Of a stretch of DNA of 64,000 nt, positions 3,112-63,594 are shown piece by piece. Source of the stretch: Bordetella sp. (GTDB lineage: Bacteria > Pseudomonadota > Gammaproteobacteria > Burkholderiales > Burkholderiaceae_B). The notes under the pieces are model-generated. The model was given only the letters and a program-made list of their open reading frames with translations. It ran no database searches and was not told the DNA's origin. Location: positions 186,001 through 250,000 of the forward strand of contig CP063810.1 in NCBI GenBank assembly GCA_022818765.1, in the 5' to 3' direction. A program made the translations under genes and the position numbers. Every line of letters begins with the position of its first letter. Positions within the stretch are counted from its first letter, which is position 1.

Positions 3112-3381
3112 TTAAACTAAAACTGCTGATTTAATTAAATGTGATAATCTTCTTTTTTGCCGAGCAGCTTTATTTTTATGTATAACGTTCTTGTCAGCTA
3201 CACGATCGATTATAGAAGTTGCTTTTTGAAAAAGTTCATTAGCTTTTTTGATTTCACCGGTATTAACTGCCGCATGCACATGCTTAACTGCTGTACGTAA
3301 CATAGATCTCATGCTAGAATTCTTTCGGTTGCGAACAATAGATTGCCTAGCTCTTTTCTGTGTTTGTAAGTTTTTACTCAT
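3112..3381 (-). CDS. rpsT: 30S ribosomal protein S20
   Basis: Primary 16S rRNA-binding protein of the small subunit. The 89-residue lysine/arginine-rich product begins MSKNLQTQKRARQS and carries the family segment RNRKNSSMRSMLRTAVK, followed by helices ending in NVIHKNKAARQKRRLSHLIK. Length is standard. A strong promoter-like sequence lies just upstream (3426-3455), and the broken fecR-like gene lies beyond it on the same strand. Confidence 0.97.
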   Translation of the reverse strand: MSKNLQTQKRARQSIVRNRKNSSMRSMLRTAVKHVHAAVNTGEIKKANELFQKATSIIDRVADKNVIHKNKAARQKRRLSHLIKSAVLV

Positions 3382-3425
3382 ATTATTTTTATAAACCTAT
3401 AATCTGGTTTTTACAAGACGGGCCA

Positions 3426-3455
3426 ATTGTACCAAATAATAATAAAGTTGTACAA
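3426..3455 (-). promoter_or_regulatory. Probable sigma-70 promoter of rpsT
   Basis: On the minus strand TTGTAC (3455-3450) is followed after 18 bases by TACAAT (3431-3426), and then a short GC-rich stretch (GGCCCG) typical of growth-controlled ribosomal promoters. It ends about 45 bases before the rpsT ATG. No other gene on this strand lies between it and rpsT. Confidence 0.5.
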
Positions 3456-3463
3456 ACCTTTCC

Positions 3464-3489
3464 TTCTAATTTTTTAAAAAAAATTAGAA
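3464..3489. terminator. AT-only inverted repeat at the end of the fecR-like gene
   Basis: Twelve-base arms TTCTAATTTTTT and AAAAAATTAGAA are separated by two bases and overlap the stop of the fecR-like gene. The A/T-only stem is weak, so it may be a poor terminator or just base composition. Confidence 0.25.
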
Positions 3490-4634
3490 AATAATTAAAG
3501 ATTTCTGAATTTCGGTCATATCTTTCAAATTGAAAACCTTTAAAATTATCTTTTCATTGAAATTATTTATACTTCTTTTAGAAGAAGGAGGAACTCTAAT
3601 AGATACTCCTAATGGGCCATAATAATGTATAGATATTGGCATGCGTTGTTGCAGTGCACTCAAAGTTGCATTTGTATCATCTAAAGAATAATTTCCAAAG
3701 ACAGGCAAACCACCAGCAGCTGCTGATATACGCAAGGGCCCAGCTCTATAAGGTCGAAGAGCTTCAATTACATCTACTAATGGACATCCATATGCATTAA
3801 TACTTCCTTTTTCCCATGAAGCTTCAGAAACTATTTCTGAACGGGGAATACCAATTTGATAGGAATCAAAACGAACTCCTTTACCTGATTCAACAATTTT
3901 TTTTTCTCCATTTAATGTTTCGATTTGAATAAAATTATCATGAACAGCTACTAGTGTTCTCTGTGCCTGCTGGCGAACCATAAATCTTGATTGATTTGTT
4001 TTAATTATTCCTTGTCCAGTATATACAATCAATGGACGATCTAATTCTTTAGAAACTCTTATGGACAAAGCGCCATTTAATAGATTAATCTGTCGGAGTG
4101 CTTGGTTAAAATTAAAATTAGCTTGGCTTCTTGCATCCAATAATAATTGGCTACCATCCATCAGTTGATAAAAACGACGCTGTCCTGTTGCTGTTGCAAC
4201 ATCAGCTTTAATATTACTAAGAGGATAAAAAGCATTCCCTATATAGATAGTACAAAACCCACCTATTCCAGAATAGAATAGTTTTGTTAGGAAATGACGT
4301 CGAGTTTGCAAGGATGTTTTTGTATGATTTGTTATCGAAGAACCCGAAGATATGTTTTTTTTAGAATCAGCATTTGAATACACTTGCCCCCCCCATCCAC
4401 AAGTGTATTCAAATGCTGATTCTTTTGTTGTAAAATAGTTGCAAAATTTGGATTAATAAGATTCTTAGTAGAATGATTATTAGAATGCCAATTTAGAAAA
4501 GCTATGTAATCTTTCCGAGAAGCTTGTTCTGAATGCAGAGTTATAAGCCATTTTGCTAGTTCATTTATTGTAGAAGTCTGATCTTTTATCACTTTCATCC
4601 TAAAATAATAAATTCTAATTGAAAATATTTTCAT
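3484..4634 (-). pseudogene. FecR-like anti-sigma/signal protein, split by a frame break in a G8 tract
   Basis: Two overlapping frames make one FecR-family protein. The upstream part (ATG 4634, or more likely 4598, MKVIKDQTSTINELAKW) matches the N-terminal cytoplasmic DUF4880 domain (WLITLHSEQASRKDYIAFLNWH). The downstream part (to 3484) has a hydrophobic segment after a TRRHFL stretch, then the FecR domain (LMDGSQLLLDARSQ, VRQQAQRTLVAVHD) and a C-terminal domain ending near VSIRVPP. The break lies at eight Gs (plus-strand C 4387-4394); nine Gs would give one protein of about 371 residues. The tract lies in the loop of a perfect 24-bp inverted repeat. FecR proteins normally control a FecI sigma factor next to them; none is present here. 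The second frame could also start at GTG 4383. Confidence 0.78.
4363..4423. repeat. Perfect 24-bp inverted repeat with a C8/G8 tract in the 13-base spacer
   Basis: The left arm 4363-4386 begins AGAATCAGCATTTG and the right arm 4400-4423 is its exact reverse complement, ending CAAATGCTGATTCT. The spacer 4387-4399 is C8 followed by ATCCA. It lies inside the fecR-like coding region at the exact place where the reading frame breaks. The arms are too long and exact to be chance. Confidence 0.95.
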
Positions 4635-4726
4635 TTAAAAAATTTAATTAGATATAACTACTGCTTAAATATACAAAGTTAAATTCTTTTCTGCTTTTTT
4701 ATAACTTTATGTTTTTAAAAAATTTT

Positions 4727-6259
4727 TTAGACGAAAACCAATAAAAAAAGAATAGAAAAATATGTAAATATCCCAAATATGGAAAATAATAAAAATACCA
4801 TGAATCTTTTTAAATAACTAGATTGCAAGAGAATCCAATTTGTATTTTCGTTTAGATAAAATATCATATAATACAAAGCTATTGATGCTATTGTGAGCTG
4901 CAAAATAAACCTTACCCAACCACTTTTTAAAATTAAAATACCATTTTTTATAAGAATAATAAATAAAAACAAGGCATTGAAACAAGCTCCTAATCCAATT
5001 GAAAGAGCGAGACCAGGATGACCTAGCCAAGGAACAAAAAAAATATTCATTAATTGAGTAATTATTAAAGAATATATTGATATTTTTAAAGGTGTTTTTA
5101 TATTATGCTGCGCATAAAAACCGGTAGCTAATATCTTAACTGCTAACAATCCTATAAGTCCTATAGAATAAGCAGAAACAGCTTTTTTAGTATTAATAAC
5201 ATCAATAACAGTAAATTTTCCATAATGAAAAAATATAGTCACTAAAGCTTCGGAAAATACAATCATTCCAATGGAAATTGGTATACCAAACAACAAAGTA
5301 AGACGCAATCCCCAATCAATTAAACCACTATAAGCATCTCGATTATTTTTTATACTTGCTTTTGAAAGATTAGTAATTAGTAAGGTACTAAAAGTAACTC
5401 CTAATAAAGAAACTGGTAATTCCATTATTCTATCTGAAAAGGATAACCATGTAATCGAACCAGGTTCCAACCTGGTAGCTATATTTGTATTAATAAACAA
5501 AGATAATTGAGCTGCAGAAACACCTAGCAAAGAAGGAATCATTTTCTTCAAAATTTTCTGAACTATTTTGCTTTGGTAAGATTTGTAAAAACTTGAAAAT
5601 AAACAAGGAGTTAAATTAATCCGATATAATGCTAACCATTGTATGATGCATTGCAAAATGCCTCCAATTAAAACTCCAATAGCTAATGAATAAATTGGTT
5701 CTTTGAGAAAATTACGAAATAAAAAATAAAAAAGTATTATCGATATATTTAGAAACATTGGGGTAATAGCTGGAATAAAAAATTTTTTCCAGACATTCAA
5801 GATTCCCGAACAAAATGCAGTAAGAGATATAAATATTATGTACGGAAACATTATTCGGGTCATACATACAGTGATCTCAAATTGTTTTGCTGTTTCATAA
5901 TTTTTGCTTATTCCACTTGCTGCATATTTTATGATGTAAAAAGCATTTACTATTCCTATAATAGTTACAACTGAAACAATTACAGTTAAGAAAAATGCAA
6001 TATAGCTTAATTTCAATCGTATCTTTTTTTTTGAAGTGTTTTGCTGAATTTCCCCAATTATTGGTATAAAAGCTTGAGAGAATGCTCCTTCTGCAAACAA
6101 TCTTCTTAAGAGATTTGGAATTCGAAAAGCTATCCAAAAAGCATCTGTTAATGGTCCAGCTCCAAATGCAAATGCTATTGTAATATCACGCATTAATCCA
6201 GTAATTCTAGAGAATAAAGTAAGCGAACTTATTATTAAAGCTGAATGGAACAAACTCAT
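4727..6259 (-). CDS. murJ: Lipid II flippase MurJ (MviN)
   Basis: Polytopic inner-membrane protein that flips the peptidoglycan precursor lipid II outward. The start MSLFHSALIISSLTLFSRITGLMRD and the segments GPLTDAFWIAFRIPNLLRRLFAEGAFSQAF are diagnostic; about 14 membrane spans are visible. As read, the protein has 510 residues and ends FLLVFV. The usual tail (GFRxxxF) is present in the next frame: adding one base to the A7 run at 4743-4749 gives FFIGFRLKNFLKT and a stop at 4707. So the end is probably one-base-short sequence rather than a real truncation. It lies on the same strand as adk upstream and the fecR-like gene downstream. Confidence 0.94.
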   Translation of the reverse strand: MSLFHSALIISSLTLFSRITGLMRDITIAFAFGAGPLTDAFWIAFRIPNLLRRLFAEGAFSQAFIPIIGEIQQNTSKKKIRLKLSYIAFFLTVIVSVVTIIGIVNAFYIIKYAASGISKNYETAKQFEITVCMTRIMFPYIIFISLTAFCSGILNVWKKFFIPAITPMFLNISIILFYFLFRNFLKEPIYSLAIGVLIGGILQCIIQWLALYRINLTPCLFSSFYKSYQSKIVQKILKKMIPSLLGVSAAQLSLFINTNIATRLEPGSITWLSFSDRIMELPVSLLGVTFSTLLITNLSKASIKNNRDAYSGLIDWGLRLTLLFGIPISIGMIVFSEALVTIFFHYGKFTVIDVINTKKAVSAYSIGLIGLLAVKILATGFYAQHNIKTPLKISIYSLIITQLMNIFFVPWLGHPGLALSIGLGACFNALFLFIILIKNGILILKSGWVRFILQLTIASIALYYMIFYLNENTNWILLQSSYLKRFMVFLLFSIFGIFTYFSILFLLVFV

Positions 6260-7087: not shown

Positions 7088-7717
7088 AGCTTCTCCTAAT
7101 TTAATATTAAGTTGTAAAACGAACAAAATCATTTAATATGACTTGACAAAAAACCAAGTTCGATTTTGTTAATCGAATCATAATTCAGTAAATATTTTAA
7201 ATCTTCAAAAATATTTACTGAATTATGATAAATAGATTATGAATTATAAACATCAATATCATATCTATTTTATATAATATATAAATTCTCTAATAATCAT
7301 CTTCTAATATTCTAAATGATAATAAAATAAAGAAATTTTTTCTAAAAAAATAACAAACATACTATAAATTATAGATTTTTTATTAACTCATTATTTATAA
7401 TAAAAGTAAGAGTAAATATTGCAGAAAAAAGATATAGGATGATTTTATTAGTATCGTAGCTTCACTGCTATATTTGTGGTAATTGTATATAAAGAATTAT
7501 TTTTATGTTCTTGAAAAGATTATCATTTTTTGAATTTATTCAAAGCAAAAGCTCATGACTTTGAATATTAATTAAAATTTTGTTTTATTCATGAGTTCAA
7601 CTTGACTAAGTTTTTAAAATGAGAAATTTTTGTAAAATGCAATCTACCATTAAAATTCCTTAATAAGGGTTTACAGAAAAAGTATTTACTAATAAATGAC
7701 AATGCTAATTGAAAGAT
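7088..7717. other. Gene-free stretch between adk and the trm112-like gene (site of lost kdsB)
   Basis: About 630 bases with no convincing gene on either strand. In Burkholderiales kdsB normally lies here between the trm112-like gene and adk. Reading the minus strand in all frames I found no KdsB motif such as ARxxSxRLPGK, so any remnant is beyond recognition. The only structure is the strong inverted repeat at 7177-7229. Confidence 0.6.
7177..7229. repeat. Perfect 22-bp inverted repeat, 9-base spacer
   Basis: The left arm 7177-7198 (ATCATAATTCAGTAAA...) is the exact reverse complement of 7208-7229 (...TTTACTGAATTATGAT), with spacer AAATCTTCA. It lies about 90 bases upstream of adk in a gene-free region. 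It could be a terminator left from a lost gene or a regulatory hairpin; no T-run follows on either strand. Confidence 0.9.
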
Positions 7718-10259: not shown

Positions 10260-12574
10260 GTGATCTCCCAAGAACTTGCAACAAGCTTGCATATGGCTTT
10301 TATCGAAGCTAAATCTTCAAGACATGAATTTATTACCGTTGAACATTTATTATTATCTCTTTTGAATAATTCTTCAGCTATTAATGTTTTACAAGCATAT
10401 GCAATAGATATAAAAGGACTGCAAAAGGATTTATACACATTTGTTATTCGAAATACACCTATAATTCCAAAAAATTCAGATATAAAAACTCAACCTACTT
10501 TGGGATTCCAAAGAGTTATTCAACGTGCTCTTATGCATCAAAATAATTTCAATGAGAATAAAAAAAATGTACTAGTAACAGGATCTATGGCTTTAATGGC
10601 TATTTATGGAGAAAAAGAATCGAAAGCTGTTCATTTTCTAAATATATGGGGAATTACACGTTTAGATGTTGTAAATTTTTTGAAAACAGATAATGAAAAA
10701 CCTGATTTTTTAGAAAATTCAATGCAATCAAGAAAGCCTATTATTAATGATGAATTAGAATCAGATAAAAAATATATAAATCAATATACGAATGATCTAA
10801 ATATAATGGCAAAACTTGATAATATCGATCCATTAATAGGAAGAGAAAATGAAATAGAACAAGTTATTCAAACATTATGTCGCCGAAAAAAAAATAATTT
10901 AATATTAGTCGGTGAAGCTGGTGTAGGAAAAACAGCTATTGTAGAAGGTTTAGCCTTATTAATTAGTCAAGGAAAAGTACCAGAAATTCTTAGAGATTCT
11001 CATATATATGCACTTGGAATAGGATCTTTGCTTGCAGGGGCAAAATATAGAGGTGATTTTGAACACAGATTAAAAACTGTTCTTAAAAATATACAAAATG
11101 ATAAAAATGCTATCTTATTTATTGATGAAATTCATACATTAATTGGAGCTGGATCAACTGCAGGTGGAAATTTAGATGCTGCCAATTTATTAAAACCATC
11201 CTTGTCTTCTGGAGAACTTCGTTGTATTGGAGCGACGACTTATACTGAATTTAGAAATATCTTTAGTAAAGATCAAGCATTATCACGTCGATTTCAGAGA
11301 ATAGAAATTCTTGAACCAACTGTAGATCAAACAATAAATATTTTACAAGGTTTAAAAAACAAGTTTGAGGCATATCACAATATTCGGTATTCTTCTTCGG
11401 CTTTAATTGCAGCAGCTCGACTGTCGAATCAATACATTTTAGGACGATATTTACCAGATAAAGCTATTGATGTAATTGATGAAGCTGGTGCAAAACAACA
11501 TTTATTAACAAATTCACGCAAAAAAAAGTTAATCAAAAAGTCTGAAATTCAACATATCGTCTCAAAAATGACCAGAATTTCTTCAAAAATTATTTCTACT
11601 AATGAACGTAATAAACTAATTGCTCTTAGCAAAGATTTGAAATCTGTAGTTTTTGGGCAAGATGAAGCAATTGATATATTAACAAATCATATTAGAATAG
11701 CTCGTTCTGGATTAGGCAATCCAGAAAAGCCTATTGGTTCTTTTTTATTTTTTGGTCCAACAGGAGTTGGAAAAACAGAGATTGCTCGTCAATTAGCTCG
11801 CATAATGGAAATTGAAATAGTATGGTTTGATATGTCTGAATATATGGAACGCCATACAGTATCTCGTTTAATTGGAGCTCCTCCTGGATATGTAGGATTT
11901 GATCAAGGGGATTATTAACAGATAGTATAAGTAAAAAACCTTATTCTGTATTATTATTAGATGAAATAGAAAAAGCTCATCAGGATATATTTAATATACT
12001 TCTTCAAATTATGGATCACGGCAGTCTATCTGATAATTATGGAAGGAAAATAGATTTCCGGAATGTAATCTTAATAATGACTACTAATGCAGGAGCAGAA
12101 GTATTTACTAAAGGTACTATTGGATTTTCAGATATCCGAACAAAAGAAGATGAGATGACTGAAATTATTCAGATATTCTCATCAGAATTTCGAAATCGTA
12201 TAGATGCTATAATTCGATTTTCAAATTTATCACATAGCACCCTTTTATACATAGTTAATAAATTTCTTGTTCAACTTAAAAATCAATTGTTCGATCAGAA
12301 AGTAAATGTTGTTTTTACAGATTATCTTCGCGAATACATAGTTAAGCATGCATCTAATCTTTCAATGGGAGCTAGGCCAATAGAAAGATTTATTCAAAAT
12401 AAAATTCACAAAATTCTTTCTGAAGAATTATTATTCGGCAGATTAATGCATGGAGGTGAAGTTATTATTAATGTTAATGAAAATGAAAAAATTATTTTTA
12501 ATATAAGTTCAAAAAATTCCCTAATAAATAAAAAAGAATTTGATTTACATTCAATAGGATTATTTAATCTATAA
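10260..12574 (+). pseudogene. clpA: ATP-dependent Clp protease ATPase subunit ClpA, frameshifted in AAA domain 2
   Basis: AAA+ unfoldase that feeds substrates to ClpP. The start is GTG 10260 with CGGAG at 10249-10253. The N domain (SRHEFITVEHLLLSLL), AAA1 with GEAGVGKTA and ILFIDEIH, and AAA2 with GPTGVGKTE are intact up to GAPPGYVGFDQG. The frame breaks at four Gs (11907-11910). With five Gs it reads FDQGGLLTD and continues through Walker B (LLLDEIEKAH) to a normal end, giving about 771 residues. As read, the first frame stops at 11918 without Walker B2, and an ATG-led piece resumes at 12011. The adaptor gene clpS, usually just upstream, is absent. True pseudogene or missing base cannot be decided here. 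Confidence 0.92.
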
Positions 12575-19536: not shown

Positions 19537-20106
19537 ATACTCCTTTCGTTTTTATAAAAAATTGAATAATATTTCAAAAATTAAAAATATTCTTATATTA
19601 TTTTAAATAAAAATTTGTAGCTACTTCTGCTATCTCTTATAATTTTTACAAGTAATAAGACTCTAAAATCTTTTAAAGATCTAGCTATAGAAATCTAATT
19701 TTCTATCACTTAATTCAGAATCTAAAATAATTTAGAAGATAATTATCTTATTAATCTTTAATATAATTCTACTAATAATTTTTTTTCAAGTATAAAATTA
19801 CTAATTATTTCAATTTTATTTTTTAGAAATATATTAAAGAAAAAAATCCAATAATATTATCTGATTCGAATTCGAACAATAATGAAATTCATGTATTATA
19901 GAAAATTAAAGAGTAATAAAAATAAAATATTTTTTAAATTAATAAATAAATAATTTAGCATTTTATTATATTGAAAATATTAAAATAAAAAATTTATCCT
20001 TTAGAGTTTTTAGATTCTATCAATATTTAATATTTATAAAAATAAAAAAGAAATATTAAATATTGATAAATTTCTAGTTTTCAAAAAATTTATTAGGAGA
20101 TAAATA
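19537..20106. other. 570-base divergent intergenic region between folD and aceE
   Basis: No coding region is supported on either strand. It holds a perfect 12-bp palindrome TTCGAATTCGAA (19865-19876) and the 18-bp inverted repeat at 20018-20068. The aceE ribosome site AGGAGA lies about 8 bases before its ATG. It must hold the promoters of both genes, but no convincing hexamer pair stands out in the A/T background. Confidence 0.6.
20018..20068. repeat. Perfect 18-bp inverted repeat upstream of aceE
   Basis: The arms TATCAATATTTAATATTT (20018-20035) and its reverse complement (20051-20068) are separated by 15 bases. The right arm ends 38 bases before the aceE ATG, so the hairpin would lie in the mRNA leader or overlap the promoter. 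It has no GC core and no T-run, so it is not an ordinary terminator. Confidence 0.88.
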
Positions 20107-60588: not shown

Positions 60589-62096
60589 TTAGTAACTTAA
60601 ATAATTATCTTTAAAAGAATTTTCAATAATTTGAATACATATATTCATTAAAGCATCTGGAAATAGACTGAAAAGAATAATAATAATTCCATTTGCATAT
60701 AATAAATATTTTGTTTTAGAAAAAAATACAAGAGATGTATTATTACTTAATACAGGTTTATCAAAATAAACATTTTTGACAATGCGCAAACAATAAAATG
60801 CACTTATCAATGTAAAAAAGATAGCAATTATTGCCGGAATAATATTTCCATTTTCTATCATCAATTGGAAAATTGATACTTTTGAATAAAACCCAATAAA
60901 AGGTGGGATACCTGCAAAGGAAAACATAGAAATCAGGATTAAAACCGCTAAAGAAGAATCATATTGATTTAAACCCTTTAAATCTTTAATTTCTTTATAT
61001 TCATGATCTTCTTTAGATAGAAACAAAAGCACTCCAAAGATTAATAATGCTGATAAACAATAAATAATCAAATAAAATAGTGAAGCTGCATAAGCATTTC
61101 TTGAAACATCATGTCTCGTTGCTATTATTCCAGATGTCAAACCAAGAAAAATGAAACCCATATGAGATATAGACGAATAAGCAAACAGTCGTTTCAAATT
61201 AGTTTGTATTATGGCGCTTAAACTTCCAATAGTTAATGATAATAAAGAAAACATTAATAATGGGTATTCCCAGTTTTTCAAAAAATTGCCAATTATAACT
61301 ATAAAAAATCGAAGCGTTATGGCTATTGGAGAAATTTTGCAATAGAGGCTAAAATAAGCGTTATGGATGTAGCTGAACCTTCATAAACATCAGGAGCCCA
61401 CATATGAAAAGGCGCTAAAGATAATTTAAAAGCTAAACTACATACTACTAATATAACTCCAAATACTAAAATAATATCTGTTTTTTCTTTTAAAGCATTA
61501 ATATTTTTTAAAAAATCTGAAATATCAACAATATCTAAAAATCCAGTAGTTCCATAAATAAGAGACATACCATATAGCAAAAAACCTGATGATAAAGCAC
61601 TAAGAATAAAGTATTTTATTGCTGCTTCAATAGCTATTGAACTACGATGCATAGCTATTAATGCATATAAAGATAAAGCTGTCAGTTCAAGACCTAGATA
61701 AATTATTATTAAATTCCCAGCTGAGATTGTAATCATCTGACCTAGCAAGGAAAACAATGCTAGCAAATAAAATTCTCCGTTTGTAGGAACATTATCTTTA
61801 AATGATATGTATTTTTTACTATAAATTAAAATTACAATCATCATAATTGATGATATTATTTTCAGAAAATAAGACAATTCATCTATGACAATTAGTTTGC
61901 CAAATGCATTTCCTAAAATTCCAGCCTTCCATTGAATTATAAAAAAAATTGTCAAACATGCTAAAGAAAAAATTGTTAATGAAAAAATCAAATTCATTGT
62001 TTTAGAAACAAACAAATCAATTAGCAATATTATTGTAATAAAAACCAGCAATAGAATTTCTGGTCCTGCAAGAACTAAATCAAAATAAGTTAACAT
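60589..62096 (-). pseudogene. nuoN: NADH-quinone oxidoreductase subunit N with one frame break
   Basis: Proton-pumping antiporter-like membrane subunit of complex I. The first frame (ATG 62096, MLTYFDLVLAGPEILLL) runs to APDVYEGSATSITLILASIAKF and stops. The rest (LKNWEYPLLMFSLLSLTIGSLSAIIQTNLKRLFAYSSISHMGF to the end) is in another frame. One more base in the T4 run at 61335-61338 reads AKISPIAITLRFFIVII and joins them into about 502 residues, normal for NuoN. A TTG at 62111 is an alternative start. Confidence 0.92.
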
Positions 62097-62116: not shown

Positions 62117-63594
62117 TTATAATTTTTTTGTAGATATATGGGTTAAAAGGTTCTCAACCGAAACATGCATTATATCAGTAAAAACTTTTGGATAGATTCC
62201 CATAAACAGTATTAGAAAAGCCATTACAAATAAAATTAAATATTCATGACAGAAAACATCTGAAATTTTTCTAATATTACTATGCACAATTTCACCAAAA
62301 ATGACCCGTTTTATTAGTAAAAGAGAATATGATGCGCCAATAACCATTGTAATTATTGATAAAAAAGCTACTAAAAAGTTTTGTTTTATTGTGCCTAAAA
62401 AATTAAAAATTCTCCAACAAAACCACTTGTTCCAGGTAAGCCAGCATTAGCCATAGAAAAAAGAATAAAAAATGTTGAAAAATTAGGCATAATTTTAGCT
62501 ATACCTGAATAATCGTCTATATCAAGAGAATGTGTTCGATTATAGAGAATACCAATGGAAAAAAACATTGCAATAGATATAAAACCATGCGAAATCATTT
62601 GAACAATTGCACCTTCTATACTAGATACATTAAGTATAAAGATGCCTAAAGTCACAAAACCCATATGGGAAATAGATGAATAAGCTACTAACCTTTTCAT
62701 ATTATCTTGAACTATTGCTATTAAACCAATATAAATTATTGAAATAAGAGAAAGACCTATTACTAAACTTGAAAAGTTCTTTGATATATCAGGAACAATA
62801 GGTAAAGCAATTCTCAGAAAACCATAAGCTCCCATTTTTAACATAATAGCTGCTAGAATAATAGAACCACTTGTAGGAGCTTCGACGTGAACATCTGGTA
62901 ACCATGTATGTACTGGCCACATTGGTATTTTTATTGCAAAGGTTATTAACAACGCAATAAAAATAAAAAGTTGCTGTGCATATTCCAATTTAGACTTATG
63001 CCATACAAATATTTCAAAGGAGTTTGATACATTTCGCAAATAAATAAAAGCTATAAGCATCAACAAGGAACCAAATAAAGTATATAAAAATAATTTATAT
63101 GCTGCGTAAATTTTATTGTTTCCTCCCCAAGTTCCAATAATGATGTACATTGGAATGAGTGTTGATTCAAAAAAAATATAAAATAACATTCCGTCTATGG
63201 CTGAGAACACTCCAATTGTTAAGCCAGACATAATTAAAAAGGCAGACATATAATGAGATATATTGCTTATAATCATTCTCCAACTTGCCAATACTATAAT
63301 AAGAGTTGTAAAAGCAGTTAGTAATATAAACCAAATTGAAATTCCATCTATACCTATATGATAATTAATTTTGAGGAATTTAATCCAAGTCAAATTTTGC
63401 TCAAACTGTATGTCAGATGTTTTGGAATTAAAACAAAAATAAATAGGTATGGTGACTAAAAATCCTGATATAGAACCTATTAATGCTATATTTTTAATAT
63501 GGTTAGTGTTTCTTATAAAAAGAATAAAAAAACCGAAAACTATTGGAACAAAAATCGATAGAGTAAGCCATGGAATATTATTTATATACATCAT
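62117..63594 (-). pseudogene. nuoM: NADH-quinone oxidoreductase subunit M with one frame break
   Basis: Second antiporter-like subunit of complex I. It starts MMYINNIPWLTLSIFVPI at an ATGATG overlapping the nuoL stop. It includes FFESTLIPMYIIIGTWGG, the LPDVHVEAPTSGSIILAAIMLKMGAYGF lysine helix and PGTSGFVGEFLIF, where the frame stops. One more base in the A6 run at 62397-62402 gives EFLIFLGTIKQNF and continues to 62117, about 492 residues. Only the last spans are affected. Confidence 0.92.

Follow-up and report, generated by a model that had tools for sequence, protein, structure and literature searches.

A FecR-like gene whose reading frame breaks around a perfect hairpin: a probable homopolymer-length error beside a probable template-switch repeat

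Why does the reading frame of a FecR-like gene break at or near a run of eight Gs in the loop of a long, perfect inverted repeat? The original prediction had offered a phase-variable switch, a fold-back mutation that created the second arm, or an assembly artefact. We consider it probable, at roughly three chances in four, that two unrelated things coincide at this locus, namely an error of homopolymer length in the assembly and a real template-switch hairpin in a free linker of the protein. Unprefixed coordinates are those of the window, i.e. the whole stretch of 64,000 nucleotides that was analysed, which has a G+C content of 29%.

The hairpin, the G8 tract and the frame of fecR

The features of the locus are as follows:

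3112..3381, minus strand: rpsT, conserved neighbour
3484..4383, minus strand: fecR downstream fragment, with the membrane segment region and the FecR domain, 299 aa from GTG; matches the domain and the orthologue profile
4332..4634, minus strand: fecR upstream fragment, carrying the start of DUF4880 (cytoplasmic); aligned over 35 residues with the orthologue profile
4332..4452, minus strand: both frames open, with the frame change somewhere inside
4355..4362, minus strand: T8 on the plus strand, read as A8 in the gene, immediately behind the hairpin; second homopolymer possible for the frame change
4363..4386: left arm of the perfect repeat, at the 3' side as the gene is read; found once even with 3 mismatches allowed
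4387..4394, minus strand: C8 on the plus strand, read as G8 in the gene, within the loop; possible frame-change site
4400..4423: right arm of the perfect repeat, at the 5' side as the gene is read
4727..6259, minus strand: murJ, conserved neighbour

The inverted repeat is present as had been claimed, with two arms of 24 nt each (4363-4386 and 4400-4423) that are 100% complementary across a spacer of 13 nt. Also as claimed, no other G/C run in the window is as long as the tract in its loop, the runner-up being a C6 at 1451. Both features are far above chance: none of five first-order Markov shuffles of the window reached a perfect arm of more than 13 nt or a G/C run of 8, and the fold of the gene-strand RNA reaches -38.4 kcal/mol, where shuffles average -15.7 (z -7.8). 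The hairpin is single-copy in the genome when its arms are searched at up to 3 mismatches, and Rfam gave nothing above its gathering score at this position, the best matches being plant microRNA and plastid hairpin models that lie well below their cut-offs. Two more familiar identities were set aside. The arms occur only once and lack exact counterparts in viral contigs, which rules out a repeat element. A scan of 3300-5000, limited to loops of 3-8, found nothing terminator-like, and along the gene it is A8, not a run of Ts, that comes after the hairpin.

The downstream frame codes for a FecR domain (PF04773, E 1.7e-15, 57.7 bits against a cut-off of 24) and scores 326 bits on the orthologue profile, while the upstream frame matches part of DUF4880 at E 0.001 and 19.3 bits, below that model's cut-off of 25. 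The upstream frame ends with a stop at 4332-4334, and the downstream one extends back unbroken as far as 4452. The two hence overlap over 121 nt, which contain the A8 as well as the G8. Since both frames are open throughout this overlap, the frame change is not placeable by inspection of the sequence alone, and each possible position was therefore scored by codon usage and by a profile of 33 orthologues. Codon usage favours a site near 4431, lying upstream of the two arms (log-likelihood 7.9), over the G tract (5.25) and the A8 (0.9); for these three sites the profile gives 349.0, 351.5 and 345.4 bits, respectively. The two measures disagree and neither decides, and the G tract may be regarded as a good candidate among others. 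Hence, of the claim that the frame breaks exactly at the G8, what stands is that the tract lies inside the overlap, whereas the exact site is not established by it. A peptide resembling the conserved ESAW of the orthologues can be read from the downstream frame within the first arm; were it genuine, the break would fall ahead of the hairpin. It sits at an ill-fitting distance and was left unaligned by the profile. The GTG behind the tract, from which the C-terminal part had been proposed to start alone, does exist as a codon at 4383, but nothing shows its use as a start.

Frame breaks across the genome

The break in fecR is one of 14 confirmed frame breaks in 13 genes of this 866,396-bp genome, counting those with both halves assignable to one family (fecR was assigned by its orthologues). 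The remaining breaks are:

clpA, window 11901-11918
nuoN, window about 61270-61330
nuoM, window about 62345-62400
gyrB, L072 2580-2682
recA, L074 9558-9687
glmM, L067 8944-8974
mutS, L067 15287-15823
coaBC, L071 19385-19421
argB, L073 10302-10353
hemE, L036 1499-1511
hemL, L037 1494-1596
tpiA, L032 1494-1518

The names hemL, glmM and argB are presumptive, given from motifs within the matched families. All 14 breaks are of the same phase, one base short modulo 3, and each has a homopolymer of 4 to 8 in its overlap window, the longest run being 4 for clpA, argB and nuoN. Those in gyrB, recA, glmM, mutS (twice), argB and coaBC were seen in eight 20-kb samples of the genome, where many entries of the raw frame-change list are ordinary gene overlaps. 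Four further candidate genes, with frame changes of the same phase, were left out of the count, namely one at L070 7037, one at L074 16413 and two that are presumably yebC and ribF, to judge from their motifs. Half of the eight G/C tracts of 7 or more in the genome lie at breaks (fecR, tpiA, hemE, hemL); the other four sit in open frames of what we assume, again from motifs, to be pgk, glyS, fusA and atpB. An automatic rule flagged 10 suspect frame changes in 224 kb of this genome, two of them of the other phase, as against one in 160 kb of the reduced relative G007 and one in 160 kb of G023, although this rule missed fecR, nuoM and nuoN and may count a few ordinary gene ends.

Because the breaks fall in needed genes (gyrB, glmM, coaBC and tpiA are among those affected), are of one sign and have a homopolymer in every overlap window, we infer a systematic undercalling of homopolymers in long reads. 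This would make the frame break of fecR one of many in the assembly, with the gene in the cell probably intact. According to the Homopolish paper, what polishing leaves of nanopore error consists mainly of frame-shifting indels in homopolymers (PMC8011154). The present breaks would resemble these, as indels that disrupt the frames of many genes at homopolymers, and sequencing error is their most likely cause. The suggestion of an assembly artefact is supported for the length of the tract but not for the hairpin. A point against this explanation is that mutS itself is broken, as a real loss of homopolymer bases would predict.

The breaks could instead be real, this being the genome of a symbiont with decayed repair that accumulates one-base homopolymer deletions, with slippage of the RNA polymerase or the ribosome (here on the G8 or the A8) yielding enough full-length protein. 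Blochmannia and Buchnera are described as carrying real one-base breaks at poly(A/T) tracts that are perhaps corrected by transcriptional slippage (PMC3017870). As in those AT-rich, reduced genomes, the breaks here are of one base in homopolymers; they differ in often lying in G/C runs and in affecting at least 13 genes in the parts examined, whereas in those genomes the tracts are poly(A/T) and 4 to 8 genes are hit in each. The broken mutS and the presence of both an A8 and a G8 in the overlap window of fecR would also suit real breaks. Nevertheless, a run of four, the longest available in clpA, argB and nuoN, is too short for efficient slippage. Moreover, all 14 breaks are of one sign and spread over many genes, and G007, itself reduced, is almost without them under the same rule. 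We therefore regard real breaks as unlikely. Decidedly improbable, too, is the stricter form of this idea, in which one-base breaks are genuine and fixed in many needed genes, at runs of G and of A/T alike, the genome lives by slippage and the G8 loop of fecR is one recoding site among others. In practical terms, homopolymer-associated gene breaks in this genome should not be taken for pseudogenes or switches before read-level checks.

A conserved gene between rpsT and murJ

Within the family, 73 of 268 genomes have a match to the FecR part with an E value of 1e-45 or lower. Of the fetched loci, 33 were checked for neighbours, and all 33 have homologues of both RpsT and MurJ. Among the named genomes, a contig search with alignment A1 gave 69 fecR loci, the closest of them from Achromobacter and Bordetella, where a query with the single protein had found no relative. 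Both neighbours lie within the fetched stretch for 42 of these 69, and in 39 of the 42 a single open frame runs from DUF4880 into FecR; the motif used did not fit in the other three. The gene is a conserved FecR-like gene between rpsT and murJ and not a stray remnant. A limited literature search turned up no study of such a gene at this position, a search for a plasmid relative of fecR gave no match, and there was no second genome of the same genus among 60 relatives.

The hairpin sits in the linker that connects the cytoplasmic part of FecR to its membrane part. This linker varies in both length and sequence among the orthologues and is of a usual length here. None of the 39 orthologue linkers, from proteins about 50% identical to this one, holds a perfect inverted repeat of 11 or more, and their longest G/C run is 6.

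In its domains the protein resembles the FecR of ferric citrate uptake (NF007296, PF04773), with which it shares the FecR domain and a partial DUF4880; it differs in reaching 132 bits on NF007296 against an equivalog cut-off of 385, and in being kept between rpsT and murJ, no fecI or fecA having been found here. A search for sigma-70 region 2 across the genome gave two matches only, RpoD and RpoH, and hence no ECF sigma factor, and a search for a TonB receptor barrel gave none. As far as these searches reach, the classical FecI-FecR-FecA circuit is absent. Achromobacter and Bordetella, too, retain a FecR-like gene flanked by rpsT and murJ, with no sigma factor gene among the fetched neighbours. 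As a separate observation, the RpoH match (L085 1018-1635) starts at profile position 78 of 285, and rpoH may also be split near its start.

These results bear on the idea that fecR is a true decaying pseudogene which, with no sigma factor to hold, is losing its cytoplasmic part first. The lack of a partner sigma factor and receptor in the searches would favour it, as would the region of the cytoplasmic domain adjoining the linker, which no longer aligns to the orthologue profile, and the relative G007, which has no FecR match and just a short gap between rpsT and murJ. Against this, the FecR part is open over 299 codons, keeps its 326 bits on the orthologue profile and is 44-54% identical to its orthologues, being preserved about as well as MurJ (48-51%). 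A decaying pseudogene is accordingly quite unlikely, and we retain the combination of an assembly error in the tract with a hairpin of separate origin.

Origin of the inverted repeat

The ORFs of this genome hold an excess of perfect inverted repeats (arms of at least 13, spacers of no more than 40), with 10 in 224 kb against 1.35 expected from a third-order Markov sequence. The same count gave four in 160 kb against 0.55 expected in G007, three in 160 kb against 0.50 in the relative G005, and none in 160 kb against 0.10 in G023. The fecR repeat falls outside the ORF interiors in this count because of the frame break, and inside them under a looser rule. This excess fits template switching at imperfect repeats, is not peculiar to the present genome, and could merit follow-up in it and the two relatives that share it. 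Such switching is known in E. coli (PMC7202029) and has been considered for the coding palindromes of nematomorph mitochondria (PMC6649704). The fecR repeat resembles both in being perfect, with a short spacer and within a coding region. No imperfect precursor of it was seen, and it differs from the palindromes of the nematomorphs, which reach 284 bp in conserved regions, in its 24-bp arms in a variable linker.

The fecR hairpin is thus probably a quasipalindrome product: template switching during replication at an imperfect repeat would have made the arms perfect, and the result would be tolerated in a linker under little sequence constraint. The event itself is not directly seen because the nearest orthologues are only about half identical. 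This leaves the proposed fold-back mutation plausible for one arm, given that the hairpin is absent from the 39 syntenic linkers; the comparison with relatives that had been suggested for the second arm delivers this absence, but at such divergence cannot date the arms or say which is the older. The hairpin offers a clean candidate case of template-switch mutation within a coding linker.

Perfect arms around a short spacer are also what we would expect of a fold-back joint, i.e. a chimera of assembly or library preparation. Yet the gene runs on at both sides in conserved order, the length of the linker stays usual and shorter perfect repeats are common in this genome and in others, so that a chimeric hairpin is highly unlikely. 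Least credible of all, and left unsupported, is a phase-variable switch in which the length of the G tract toggles full-length FecR or frees a C-terminal part from the GTG at 4383: a long G tract within a gene of an AT-rich genome, at or near a frame break, does invite it, but of the genome's eight G/C tracts of at least 7, four are at breaks, three of these in the housekeeping genes hemE, hemL and tpiA, the remaining breaks are in shorter runs, gyrB, recA, glmM, mutS and others share a kind of break that is thus not confined to a few surface or regulatory genes, no G/C run beyond 6 occurs in the orthologue linkers, and the genome searches found no partner sigma factor or receptor.

Outside long ORFs, further long perfect inverted repeats were seen at 7177-7229 and 20018-20068 in the window and at L068 13127-13184, with arms of 22, 18 and 27, respectively.
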